Positions 9,662-40,029 of a stretch of DNA of 44,924 nucleotides are shown one piece after another (within the stretch, counting starts at the first letter, position 1; each line of letters opens with the position of its first letter). Origin of the DNA: a virus; IMG/VR virus record IMGVR_UViG_3300033388_003146, positions 1-44,924 of that record; one strand, given 5' to 3'. The translations under genes and the position numbers were made by a program. The notes under the pieces were generated by a model that did not search any database, had not been told where the DNA came from, and saw nothing but the letters and a program-made list of their open reading frames with translations.

Positions 9662-11257
9662 CTATACAGGTCTGTTGCCAAGTAATTTATGGTCTTGAAG
9701 AATCTGTGATATAAAGAAATCTTCGTCTACGTTAGAGTTAAATATCTCGTATTGAATCCGCTTACCACGAGTGCCTACATCAAATGGTTTGTCTATCATC
9801 TCGTCGCCACCGTAGGTGTCTGCCCCGTATACTGCTGTTCCATAAGTGCCTCCGACACCCGACAAGTCAATGCTCTGCTGTGTTAACGCTATACCATCAA
9901 CCCATATATTTATATATACGTTGTAAGCCCCTTTCGCCTCGGTCACCAGCCATCCCTGCGAATATTTCTTGCTTATTCTTGGATTATCGAAAGGCATACG
10001 AGCAGTTTTAAAACCAGCATAATAAGCCACACTATCATCATTCTTATTAGCTTCCTCCAACTCCCAAACATACCCTGAATAATCTCCTGTATAAACATAC
10101 TGAGTATGGTGAGTTGCTGGGTCTACCCTGACAATCGCCGAGCACGAAGCATCGAAGCCTGAAGCATTAGTCTGGTTGTCGTGCACAACCCAACCCTCTT
10201 CTGGCCCTTTATCGATATTGTATACAAGGGAGGTGTCTACCGTTGACTGCCCTGCCCTTACCACAAAAAACCTAGCTATTCGCAACTCGGGGTCGTATAC
10301 AGCATGGAACTGATTTATTTTACCTAAATCACAATTATCTCGTATCCACTTATCTATCCATGACGGCTTAGTTATGGATGCCTGTTTGTAGTCGCCGTAA
10401 GACTCTGCTGCTCTCACAGAATAAATATTACCGTCATCCGTCATGCAAAGAAGGTCGTTAGGGGTCTTTACTATAAGCCTCCAATGAGCCGCACCGCCTT
10501 CCCATTGCGCTCCGTCATAACCCCATTTAGATATATCGGTACTAGAGTCATCCATAACATAAGTTTTATTTTTGCCGAAAGCAAAGAGCCTGTCGCCAAA
10601 TTCAGCTATCCCAACTATCCCATACCCATCATTCGTGTTGATATAGAAAGTATTAATCGTTCCTTGAGAGAAATCTAATCCTATACCTGCACTATTAGGC
10701 GTTACATATAGAGTATGAGGATTATTTGGACACCCCGAAGCCCACCCTCGCTCTGAGTTTTTGCGACCATGCACAACTATCTGCTGAGGAAAATTACTAC
10801 CTGTCCAATCAGTAGGAACGGCAGCCATGTCAGACGTTGAGCCAGCAGAGCCATCCCAAGTCTGCGGTATATTTGCACCGTTGCAAACGTACAGAGTATC
10901 AGCATATACCTGAAAGTGAAAATACTTCGCTGCCGTAAGGCCAGTCTTCAGGCTTGTCGTAGAGTTTTTCCATATCGCCCCTGCTGCCGTACCAACCATA
11001 ACAAAATCGGTAGCATCTACAAGCCTAAAGTCAAAGATACCCATCAGCTGAGAAGAGCCATATCCGATAGTGCCGTTAACCTTGTCCGTGCCGCCACGCT
11101 TACCACGACCGTTATCGAAGATATTGATATTCCTAGCCAATACCATCGACTCAGGGGGTATTTGGTCAATGTTTGGGTTTGCCGTAAGACCACCCTTAGC
11201 ACACGGGACTCTATATGTCTGGCCTACATAGCTCATGTATCCTTCCTTTTTAGCCAA
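9662..11257 (-). CDS. tail nozzle / tail tubular protein B-like
   Basis: This 531-residue, beta-rich protein opens with a segment typical of podovirus nozzle and stabilisation proteins (KGGLTANPNIDQIPPESM, then LARNINIFD.GRGKRGG). Repeated aromatic/glycine strands of a propeller-like body follow. It sits between fibre-type proteins and the tailspike, where the distal tail tube component is expected. The start overlaps the end of the 72-residue gene by 25 nt. The exact family is inferred from the N-terminal pattern and gene order. Confidence 0.78.
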   Translation of the reverse strand: MAKKEGYMSYVGQTYRVPCAKGGLTANPNIDQIPPESMVLARNINIFDNGRGKRGGTDKVNGTIGYGSSQLMGIFDFRLVDATDFVMVGTAAGAIWKNSTTSLKTGLTAAKYFHFQVYADTLYVCNGANIPQTWDGSAGSTSDMAAVPTDWTGSNFPQQIVVHGRKNSERGWASGCPNNPHTLYVTPNSAGIGLDFSQGTINTFYINTNDGYGIVGIAEFGDRLFAFGKNKTYVMDDSSTDISKWGYDGAQWEGGAAHWRLIVKTPNDLLCMTDDGNIYSVRAAESYGDYKQASITKPSWIDKWIRDNCDLGKINQFHAVYDPELRIARFFVVRAGQSTVDTSLVYNIDKGPEEGWVVHDNQTNASGFDASCSAIVRVDPATHHTQYVYTGDYSGYVWELEEANKNDDSVAYYAGFKTARMPFDNPRISKKYSQGWLVTEAKGAYNVYINIWVDGIALTQQSIDLSGVGGTYGTAVYGADTYGGDEMIDKPFDVGTRGKRIQYEIFNSNVDEDFFISQILQDHKLLGNRPV

Positions 11258-22311: not shown

Positions 22312-22388
22312 TGGTCTCGGTAGAAGGATTCGAACCTCCGATAATCTGCTCCCAAAGCAGATGGCTTACCTGACTGGCCTATACCGAG
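22312..22388 (-). tRNA. tRNA-Pro (TGG)
   Basis: A full cloverleaf is visible on the minus strand: 7-bp acceptor CTCGGTA/TACCGAG, anticodon stem TCTGC/GCAGA around loop TTTGGGA (anticodon TGG), T arm with TTCGAAT, discriminator A and encoded CCA. It lies between the small membrane gene and a terminator. It probably supplements host proline decoding during late expression. Confidence 0.95.
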
Positions 22389-22525: not shown

Positions 22526-24346
22526 CTACCATAACGCTGCCTCATCAAAAAACTCTGGCTCTGGAGCACTCTGCACCAAGGGATACCATGAGACAGGGAA
22601 TTGCGTTACATATCGCAACGAAGCGTGAAGGTGGTGCTTGCCTTCCTTGATTCTATCTTTCGGCCCTTGGCTGTCCTCGTTGGCATACGTATCTCTCTCA
22701 AGCGTCCTGAAGGAATTTATCAGCACCTTGTTCTCTGGCCTATCGACTATATATATTCTTGGTGGCGAGGCTCTAAGGCGTTTTTTAATATCGTCAACAC
22801 CTGCCTTAATCGAGCCCTCGAATTTATCACTTGTCCGAAGTCCTGGTATTGCATTTTTACCTCTCGAAAGCTCCCTGAATATATTCCTACCGCCAAACGC
22901 AGTAATCGTGCTATTGGAACTCTTGTCAGCGACAGACCACCCCATTCTATAGCCACTTTCTCGCACAATCCTGTGAAAATCCTCCTTCACTTCTTCGGTG
23001 TCTGCGTCTCGTGAGTAGCATCTGTCAACATACATGATACCCTCTCTGTCCACCAATACAAACACCCCTGCTGTCGCAGTAACCAAGTGAGGGTCGAAGC
23101 CCGCAATACACAAATAATCCTGCTTACCGCTCGGAGAAAGGTCATCAATAAATGGAGGCATGACGTGATGCTTTGCGAATAGGCCACTATATACCAAACC
23201 AGAGAGAGAGATGGCTTCGCCCAAAAGACGCATTTTCATTTCTTCATAAGATGAAACCTTCACATACTCATCCATTATTTTTGCCTGAGTATCTAGGTTA
23301 ATGTGCGAATTTGTTACTGTCGTTAATTTAAATAATGTAGAATCTTTTATCTCTGTCTCGTTACCTGTCTGCTCGTCTTCAAAAATGCCATCGTGAAAAA
23401 GTTCTGTCGCCCACGTCAAACCCTCAGTCGGAGTCCAGTCAATCTCAATATCCAATGCCTCCGCAGTACCAAAACGCATTAGCGTTTCTTTCCACTTCGC
23501 CTTCGCAGGCTCTTCATCAAACTTCGCCCAATCCAAGTCACCACCCTGCGCACTTTTTACGTCCTGTTGATTAGTTAGAAATTCTACCTGCGAGCAAGGC
23601 TTGCCCTTACGATACAAAGTTAAAATATCAAATTCTTTAGAATAACTTTCTTCCCAAATTCCCTTCTTCAAATACTCACGGGGTATCCACTTCTTCCAAG
23701 CATCCAGCACCACCCTATGCAACTGTTTGTTATCAACAGCAGTTACTCGTCCTTTAATAAATTTACGATTTGCCCTCTCAATTACGTCTGCAAATATATC
23801 CTTATACTGCTCCATACTTTTAGGCAACTCACCCGTACTTTTAATAATCCCATCTATCGTTCCGCAAACAGTCTTACTACTTCTGTTACCGCCACTCACT
23901 CCCTTAATACCACTCCTGCAAAGCAAAGCGTCTAACTGACTGTCTACAAACGTAGGTATATCCTCTTCCTTCAGATACCTCGCAAGCAACGCCCGCCTCT
24001 CTGGTGTGATGTCTCCCGTATTCGGCTCGAAAAACCAAAACGGGTCACTATCAATAACCTCAGTCAGACTCGCCTCGGCGACCCTCAGCTTCTCCTCAAG
24101 CAAAGCAAGCCTCTCGGCCCTCTGCTTCGGCGTTAACTTCGCTCGCTCCGTCTCCGTTAGCTTCTCCGCAGAGACAGCGTGATTCTTCCTGGCACGAGGC
24201 TTCTTATCTGGGCCACGTTTACCATTGCCACGCTTACGGGGCTTGAGAGGCTTGTCAACGCCACCCTTCGGCGAGTCTGACCCGACCTGAGAGCCATCTA
24301 TGCCCGACTTCGCACCACCTATCTCGCCCTCCTGCCTATCTCCCAT
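22526..24346 (-). CDS. terL: terminase large subunit
   Basis: This 606-residue protein has a basic low-complexity N-terminal extension (residues 1-58). The ATPase follows: Walker A-type GGNRSSKT at 152-159 and a Walker B-type KFDEEP with D277, E278 and E279. The nuclease domain begins at IAGFDPH (414-420), the first metal-binding Asp of the RNase H-like fold. It translocates DNA into the prohead and cuts it. The long basic extension is unusual and may bind DNA. It overlaps the upstream small gene by 28 nt. Confidence 0.95.
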   Translation of the reverse strand: MGDRQEGEIGGAKSGIDGSQVGSDSPKGGVDKPLKPRKRGNGKRGPDKKPRARKNHAVSAEKLTETERAKLTPKQRAERLALLEEKLRVAEASLTEVIDSDPFWFFEPNTGDITPERRALLARYLKEEDIPTFVDSQLDALLCRSGIKGVSGGNRSSKTVCGTIDGIIKSTGELPKSMEQYKDIFADVIERANRKFIKGRVTAVDNKQLHRVVLDAWKKWIPREYLKKGIWEESYSKEFDILTLYRKGKPCSQVEFLTNQQDVKSAQGGDLDWAKFDEEPAKAKWKETLMRFGTAEALDIEIDWTPTEGLTWATELFHDGIFEDEQTGNETEIKDSTLFKLTTVTNSHINLDTQAKIMDEYVKVSSYEEMKMRLLGEAISLSGLVYSGLFAKHHVMPPFIDDLSPSGKQDYLCIAGFDPHLVTATAGVFVLVDREGIMYVDRCYSRDADTEEVKEDFHRIVRESGYRMGWSVADKSSNSTITAFGGRNIFRELSRGKNAIPGLRTSDKFEGSIKAGVDDIKKRLRASPPRIYIVDRPENKVLINSFRTLERDTYANEDSQGPKDRIKEGKHHLHASLRYVTQFPVSWYPLVQSAPEPEFFDEAALW

Positions 24347-25181: not shown

Positions 25182-25409
25182 TATGCCTCCCGTCGGGGAA
25201 TACCCCTTTTTATTTTTTTCCTCCAGAGAATGGGTAGTAACTTTACTCACTCAGGGTATACCATCTCCCCCCTCCCCTACCCCCGACTTATCAACAGCTT
25301 ATCAACACCTACCTGTGCATATCCTGTGGATAACCTACCTAACCATGCGTAATCGCTATGCTTTGCCTGTGGATAACTATTGTGACGATACTTCATACTC
25401 ACTATGAGG

Positions 25410-25446
25410 TAATGGCTGCAAGTCCTTGATTGTAGACGCCTTTATC
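25410..25446 (+). repeat. iteron-like direct repeat, copy 1
   Basis: This 37-bp unit matches the copy at 25504-25540 at 29 of 37 positions, most differences being transitions. Both copies end with the shared sequence ACGCCTTTATC. They lie among the DnaA boxes and may be iterons or a remnant of duplication. Confidence 0.7.
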
Positions 25447-25503
25447 TCTACCTATAGACTATCACCTTGCGATACCGCATAATACCTCATGTATTCTATT
25501 AAG

Positions 25504-25540
25504 TAATAGCTGTAAATACCTAATTATAAACGCCTTTATC
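25504..25540 (+). repeat. iteron-like direct repeat, copy 2
   Basis: This is the second copy of the 37-bp unit at 25410-25446. It is the more A/T-rich of the pair and overlaps the AT-rich stretch. A consensus DnaA box follows at 25572. Confidence 0.7.
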
Positions 25541-25624
25541 CTTAAGATTTACCTATGCACACTATCAAGAGTTATCCACACCGCTACATATAGTGGGTCT
25601 ACGCACAATGACATAAGCCAGCAC

Positions 25625-25668
25625 ATAGCTCAGCACGACAATAGTGACCGCAAAGCATAGTGAGCTAT
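25625..25668. repeat. 8-bp inverted repeat beside HTH gene
   Basis: ATAGCTCA at 25625-25632 and TGAGCTAT at 25661-25668 are perfect inverted copies separated by 28 nt. The pair lies just downstream of the HTH gene stop. It could be a binding site for that protein, a hairpin, or chance. Confidence 0.45.
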
Positions 25669-25689
25669 ACATCCACCACAAAACGTCCA

Positions 25690-26148
25690 TTACTCGCCAT
25701 CCTCGCCCCTTAGAGCGTCCATTTCTGCCTTGATTGTATCGATTGTTTCATTGACATGCTCGACCGTACTCTTAGCCGATATATTCTGCGTTGACTGCCC
25801 TCTTTCCAGGCGTTCTTTGTCGTAGATTATTGCACCTGCTACAACTCGTTGATGAGGTGACATATCGTTTATATCGTCATCGGTGATAGAATTAAGCATC
25901 CTACGCCCTAAACTCGTAAAACTATCCGCCCTATGCTTCTTATACCTCTTAAGTCCTGGCACGTCCGCTTTCAAACGCCTACGACAAACCGTTTCCCTTG
26001 TAATGCCTAGGAGTTTACCAATTTCAGGGTCGGTGAGTCCTTGTGCGTGATATTCCAGTATGTCTTCTATAGGTATGCCTTTAGGTCTAGTATCAACCTT
26101 TGGCTTTTCGGTAGGCTCAATGATATCGGTGACAGCATTGCTTTCCAT
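25690..26148 (-). CDS. HTH DNA-binding protein, candidate small terminase
   Basis: This 152-residue protein has a clear helix-turn-helix at about residues 28-60 (ILEYHAQGLTDPEIGKLLGI followed by TRETVCRRR). A C-terminal helical region (VAGAIIYDKERLERGQST) resembles phage small-terminase and related HTH proteins. It is the first gene of the late arm, upstream of TerL but separated from it by three small genes and the DnaA-box block. It may be TerS, a late-gene regulator or an origin-binding protein. Two promoter candidates precede it. Confidence 0.78.
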   Translation of the reverse strand: MESNAVTDIIEPTEKPKVDTRPKGIPIEDILEYHAQGLTDPEIGKLLGITRETVCRRRLKADVPGLKRYKKHRADSFTSLGRRMLNSITDDDINDMSPHQRVVAGAIIYDKERLERGQSTQNISAKSTVEHVNETIDTIKAEMDALRGEDGE

Positions 26149-34206: not shown

Positions 34207-34281
34207 GGGTCTGTAGTTTAATGGCAAAACACTTTGCTCATAACAAAGGTGCTGTTGGTTCGAATCCAGCCAGACCCACCA
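34207..34281 (+). tRNA. tRNA-Met (CAT)
   Basis: The cloverleaf is complete: acceptor GGGTCTG/CAGACCC, anticodon stem CTTTG/CAAAG around CTCATAA (anticodon CAT), T arm with TTCGAAT, and encoded ACCA. An isoleucine tRNA with modified CAT anticodon is a formal alternative. It lies just before the helicase-like gene. Confidence 0.95.
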
Positions 34282-39954: not shown

Positions 39955-40029
39955 TACAGGGTCGTTTAACAGGCAAGACTCCAGATTTTGATTCTGGCAA
40001 TCTAGGTTCGATTCCTAGCCCTGTAGCCA
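39955..40029 (+). tRNA. tRNA-Gln (TTG)
   Basis: Complete cloverleaf: acceptor TACAGGG/CCCTGTA, anticodon stem CCAGA/TCTGG around TTTTGAT (anticodon TTG), T arm CTAGG/CCTAG with TTCGATT, discriminator G and encoded CCA. It sits between SSB and a zinc-finger gene. Confidence 0.95.

Follow-up and report, generated by a model that had tools for sequence, protein, structure and literature searches.

A DnaA-box cluster between the probable small and the large terminase genes of an uncultured podovirus-type phage: a candidate module for capturing host DnaA

The cluster of DnaA boxes described here lies in an uncultured podovirus-type genome of 44,924 bp (the window, i.e. the whole stretch of DNA that was analysed), the record ends of which overlap by 114 bp, making it effectively circular with a length of ~44.8 kb. 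These arbitrary ends apparently split an SF2-type helicase gene (43.9 kb to the end, and 1-493). The whole feature is contained in a ~507-bp block between the gene of an HTH protein and the operon of the large terminase subunit (TerL), and the gene-free location given in the initial annotation was confirmed (Table 1). The left edge of the block was set by the start of a leftward gene, read from the sequence as an ATG at 25182 preceded by GGGAGG. In the map of open reading frames leftward genes start from 26.15 kb and rightward genes from ~26.3 kb.

Only distant named relatives were found for the TerL of the window and for its SU10-type portal protein. The HTH gene is probably the small terminase gene (TerS), judging from its position, the gene architecture and weak profile matches in single relatives. 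A search of solved structures with the HTH protein returned generic HTH matches only, and a scan of viral contigs with the HTH gene yielded no confirmed relative. The AlphaFold model of the protein was of low confidence (pLDDT 62.5, pTM 0.30) and was left out of the fold search. The window had no nucleotide-level match among sequenced phages, and no prophage relatives were detected by TerL in GTDB genomes. An Rfam search of the window returned three tRNAs (tRNA-Pro at 22312, tRNA-Met at 34207 and tRNA-Gln at 39955) and nothing else.

Table 1. Features of the terminase region of the window (positions refer to the 44,924-bp stretch)
Feature	Position	Strand	Basis or remark
TerL, large terminase subunit	22526..24346	-	protein comparison
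Gene-free block flanked by the TerL operon and the HTH (probable TerS) gene	25183..25689	.
Conserved 14-mer TAAAGTTACTACCC, followed 20 nt later by AAAAAGGGG	25232..25245	-	in the window, L007, G004 and L080
G-rich tract	25265..25285	-	sequence comparison
DnaA box TTATCAACA, 1 mismatch	25288..25296	+	motif search
DnaA box TTATCAACA, 1 mismatch	25299..25307	+	motif search; head-to-tail, 11 bp after box 25288
Weak DnaA-like site ATATGCACA	25314..25322	-	TTWTNCACA type; head-to-tail, 11 bp from box 25325
Exact DnaA box TTATCCACA	25325..25333	-	motif search
Exact DnaA box TTATCCACA	25368..25376	-	within 15-nt inverted arm 25368-25382
Imperfect direct repeat, copy 1	25388..25446	+	59 bp, 73% to copy 2
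16-mer AATCAAGGACTTGCAG	25416..25431	-	exact match in the same interval of L080, remaining interval divergent
AT-rich segment between the box groups	25479..25528	.	78% AT; only candidate unwinding element
Imperfect direct repeat, copy 2	25482..25540	+	59 bp
Weak DnaA-like site CTATGCACA	25553..25561	+	TTWTNCACA type
Exact DnaA box TTATCCACA	25572..25580	+	motif search
HTH protein, probable small terminase subunit (TerS)	25690..26148	-	gene always upstream of TerL in relatives

The whole genome has three exact TTATCCACA sites, all of them in one 0.5-kb block, the expectation under an order-2 Markov model being 0.345 per genome. None of 200 simulated genomes contained five near-matches or three exact boxes within 300 bp, and only three of the ~35,400 9-mers occur in three copies within 300 bp, two of these three being the DnaA box. 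The initial annotation had noted three exact boxes in both orientations, two one-mismatch boxes 11 bp apart (start to start) and a density far above chance, all of which proved correct. Other details had to be amended. The initial annotation did not mention the minus-strand G-rich tract or the conserved 14-mer near the left edge of the block. The imperfect direct repeat is present, but it extends over 59 bp, not 37, and the inverted pair (25368-25382 / 25566-25580) is 15 nt long with 93% identity instead of 8 bp. The AT-rich stretch is real and belongs to the top 0.4% of 50-bp windows, however seven other places in the genome equal or exceed it. The term 'iteron-like' is apt for the two head-to-tail box pairs with 11-bp spacing (2-bp gap) only, since the 59-bp repeat does not form an array. 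The 11-bp head-to-tail spacing is known for DnaA assembly in the oriC of E. coli.

The lineage of the window phage was sampled through eight viral contigs with related TerL proteins and a ninth, L080, recovered through the conserved TAAAGTTACTACCC element. In one of them, L007 (TerL ~53%), seven exact boxes with spacings of 11/11/32/22/32/11 occupy 128 bp (144-271) in the gap that separates TerL from the gene before it; after the array come a G-rich tract and TAAAGTTACTACCC-N20-AAAAAGGGG, exactly as on the minus strand of the window. The initial annotation had named conservation of the boxes in related phages as a check, and its outcome was mixed: L007 has a syntenic array, but no exact box was found in the 45 kb of the relatives G001 and G004. 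The TAAAGTTACTACCC-N20-AAAA(A)GGGG span is located at 25203-25245 (-) in the window, 316-358 in L007, 42002-42044 in G004 and 10249-10290 (-) in L080, and every carrier has it immediately ahead of the gene that opens the TerL operon. G001 has only the core TAAAGTTACT, which abuts the stop codon of the HTH gene and leaves no space for boxes. A G-rich tract precedes the conserved element also in L007, G004 and G001, and a G/C-rich version of it in L080. The element is a candidate cos/packaging site or leader element. G004 and L080 have kept it, with the DnaA boxes replaced by other short repeats, which in G004 are AGTTAT units at 10-bp steps. In L080 several TTGACG repeats stand in the interval 10290-10570 where the boxes would be, as if for another DNA-binding protein. 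The box block is a fixed-position but optional module within this lineage, and its optional presence fits an accessory. Several contigs with a related TerL stop close upstream of that gene, a hint that the DNA has a physical terminus at this place.

The usual practice is to annotate the DnaA boxes of phages genome by genome, as a putative origin. Three tandem GGTTATCCACA units were present in 28 viral contigs, and in 14 of these the array was less than 500 bp from a contig end (2.9 expected). TerL or TerS adjoins the array in G010, G017, G020, L011, L018, L028, L031 and L007, in a wider sample that was partly chosen by the array pattern. Two further TerL families were fetched, apart from the query phages, regardless of boxes. 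In the 80 loci of the G010 family 76 of the 86 exact boxes lay 1-2 kb upstream of TerL (1 in the reversed-pattern control), and in the 37 loci of the G017 family 42 of 43 were just past TerL (3 in the control), so that in these two unrelated families together 118 of 129 exact boxes fall at one place beside TerL. A three-box cluster was found in 12/80 and 4/37 loci, respectively, counts that include many loci not spanning the spot. With 300 permutations of the 9-mer, clusters appeared in at most one locus, versus 16 for the real box. We propose 'terminase-adjacent DnaA-box arrays' as a class; the arrays of the window and of L007 are at the position that defines it. A literature search for DnaA boxes together with cos sites and terminase found, with incomplete coverage, no paper, and one for DnaA boxes with direct terminal repeats, likewise incomplete, found only one, a single-genome Ori-Finder prediction.

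Arrays were also seen at or near the genome ends of T7-like, SP6-like and T5-like phages with their own replication machinery, and array phages frequently encode their own PolA. In the T7-like phage A7 each of the two terminal-repeat copies contains the boxes, in P483 the array lies between TerL and the early genes, and in BF23 (T5-like) the array at ~5.4 kb is inside the annotated 9.7-kb left terminal repeat. In the Arthrobacter cos phage Seahorse the final 92 bp hold three boxes and, as in the window, a G-rich tract comes after them; judged by position, the array of BillyTP is, similarly to that of Seahorse, in the final 75-95 bp of the record, and Vibrio phage BD1 has boxes close to both record ends. 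The exceptions, with arrays away from an annotated terminase, are Lactococcus AM1, Limnohabitans DC31 and the G022/G023 contigs. In the latter (L058 and L060, respectively), which belong to phages with their own PolA, four tandem boxes lie ~0.2 kb from the gene of a 776-aa DNA primase, and an origin role is more plausible there. In a microvirus-like contig, L014, five tandem exact boxes (1597-1650) precede a replication-initiation gene by ~85 bp; no terminase was found in this contig.

Taking all readings of this kind together, the cluster is very probably a binding module for host DnaA. Host DnaA as the intended ligand, already proposed in the initial annotation, appears well supported by the exact consensus, the 11-bp phasing, the seven-box array of L007 and the enrichment beside TerL elsewhere. 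The interpretation we favour, to which we assign a probability of roughly 0.47, is that the module, which sits between the probable TerS and TerL in intergenic DNA of the packaging end, serves to capture or titrate DnaA rather than being the equivalent of oriC. Judging from synteny and from the relatives, the block would be at a physical end of the virion DNA of the window phage. Host DnaA would bind cooperatively as soon as that end becomes available, and the phage DNA copies made later would each bind DnaA too. The host initiator would thereby be captured and titrated in a datA-like sink, which could hinder new initiations on the host chromosome and keep DnaA on the phage DNA. This interpretation draws support from the non-chance nature of the cluster, the syntenic array of L007, the arrays beside TerL or at the termini of unrelated phages and the presence of their own PolA in array phages. 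Many unrelated phages have similar arrays next to their packaging genes or at the ends of their genomes, so capture is more likely than a simple copy of a host origin.

Several observations count against the capture interpretation. A pure sink would need neither a fixed position nor 11-bp phasing nor an AT-rich segment nearby. Five to seven sites per genome would make a small sink before the copy number rises. Termini often contain the largest non-coding stretches, thus the position of the arrays may merely reflect the available room, and in some array phages (G022, L014) the neighbouring genes encode a primase or a replication initiator and not a terminase. In its broadest form, which we put forward as a tentative possibility, unrelated tailed phages would have convergently placed tandem arrays of host DnaA boxes at their packaging ends (in terminal repeats, cos ends or terS-terL gaps), the initiator would be seized by the leading DNA as it enters the cell, and the array of the window would be partly decayed or rearranged. 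In T7-like, T5-like and cos phages and in uncultured podovirus families the boxes are fixed next to terminase genes or at the ends of the genome, which suggests a shared phage interaction with the bacterial master initiator.

A serious rival is an oriC-like phage origin, at which host DnaA would melt the AT-rich DNA separating the box groups and load host DnaB for bidirectional theta replication. It has to be considered because the window phage lacks a recognisable polymerase or initiator: neither PolA nor a DnaA-like initiator was recognised in it (nor was a phage-encoded DnaA C-terminal domain among 19 records). Among its own proteins are SSB, a primase/helicase-like ATPase, RecT and YqaJ, and it probably depends on the replisome of its host. 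The 78% AT content between the boxes would suit such an origin, and so would the V-shaped cumulative skew, with a minimum near 26.0 kb and a maximum near 1.9 kb, roughly opposite at about half a genome. In the GC-skew check recommended in the initial annotation the minimum itself (25,996) lay outside the boxes, inside the HTH gene beside the gene-strand switch, and in the box-less G001 the skew turns at the same HTH gene. An array lies less than 1 kb from the skew minimum in G010, G021, G011 and the window, but across 11 array contigs the closeness reached only P = 0.06 compared to intergenic positions. The BUS (box, GC cluster, DnaA-trios) is absent, no run of three trios being detected within 45 nt of any box. 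The proposal that the cluster is a host-type replication origin was not demonstrated: the boxes do not contain the skew minimum, the cluster is missing from G001 and G004, and like arrays are found at the ends of phages that have a replisome of their own. We consider an oriC-like origin less likely than capture, yet a fair possibility.

The remaining explanations seem much less probable. The repeats could be terminase-recognition (cosB- or pac-like) sites for the HTH protein of the phage which only resemble DnaA boxes; their position between the probable TerS and TerL, the presence of different short repeats in the same interval of L080 (TTGACG) and G004 (AGTTAT) and the nearby conserved TAAAGTTACTACCC element would agree with this. 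We find it improbable nevertheless, as the identical TTATCCACA is found beside unrelated terminases whose sole common partner is host DnaA, and also in the microvirus-like L014. Alternatively, DnaA might act on the terminase operon as a transcription factor or a roadblock, which would be consistent with the window and L007, where the boxes immediately precede the leader of the TerL operon; other families, however, have their arrays past TerL or within terminal repeats, which leaves this role with a slim chance. Chance clustering is statistically refuted by the simulations, the syntenic array of L007 and the family-wide enrichment, and its likelihood is negligible.

It is instructive to compare the cluster with known DnaA-binding loci. 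With bacterial oriC (E. coli, B. subtilis) it shares the 9-mer, the 2-bp gaps and the AT-rich DNA nearby, but it lacks the unit of GC cluster plus DnaA-trios and the oriC genes, and its boxes are in mixed orientation. DnaA boxes are also part of extrachromosomal replicons such as phage P1 oriR and the iteron plasmids; in contrast to these, no RepA-type initiator gene was found in the window, and no 19-22-bp iterons accompany its boxes. Similarly to a datA-type titration locus, it is a cluster of high-affinity boxes with no evident unwinding mechanism, but unlike datA it is phage-borne and located at a packaging locus, and titration is only proposed here. The injection-stop signal of T5 contains DnaA boxes (PMC13250531). 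T5 and its relatives resemble the window phage in having tandem DnaA boxes in non-coding DNA, which in BF23 is part of the left terminal repeat. They are, however, large siphoviruses with long terminal repeats and two-step DNA transfer, whereas the window phage is of podovirus type, has no known terminal repeat and carries its boxes between TerS and TerL.
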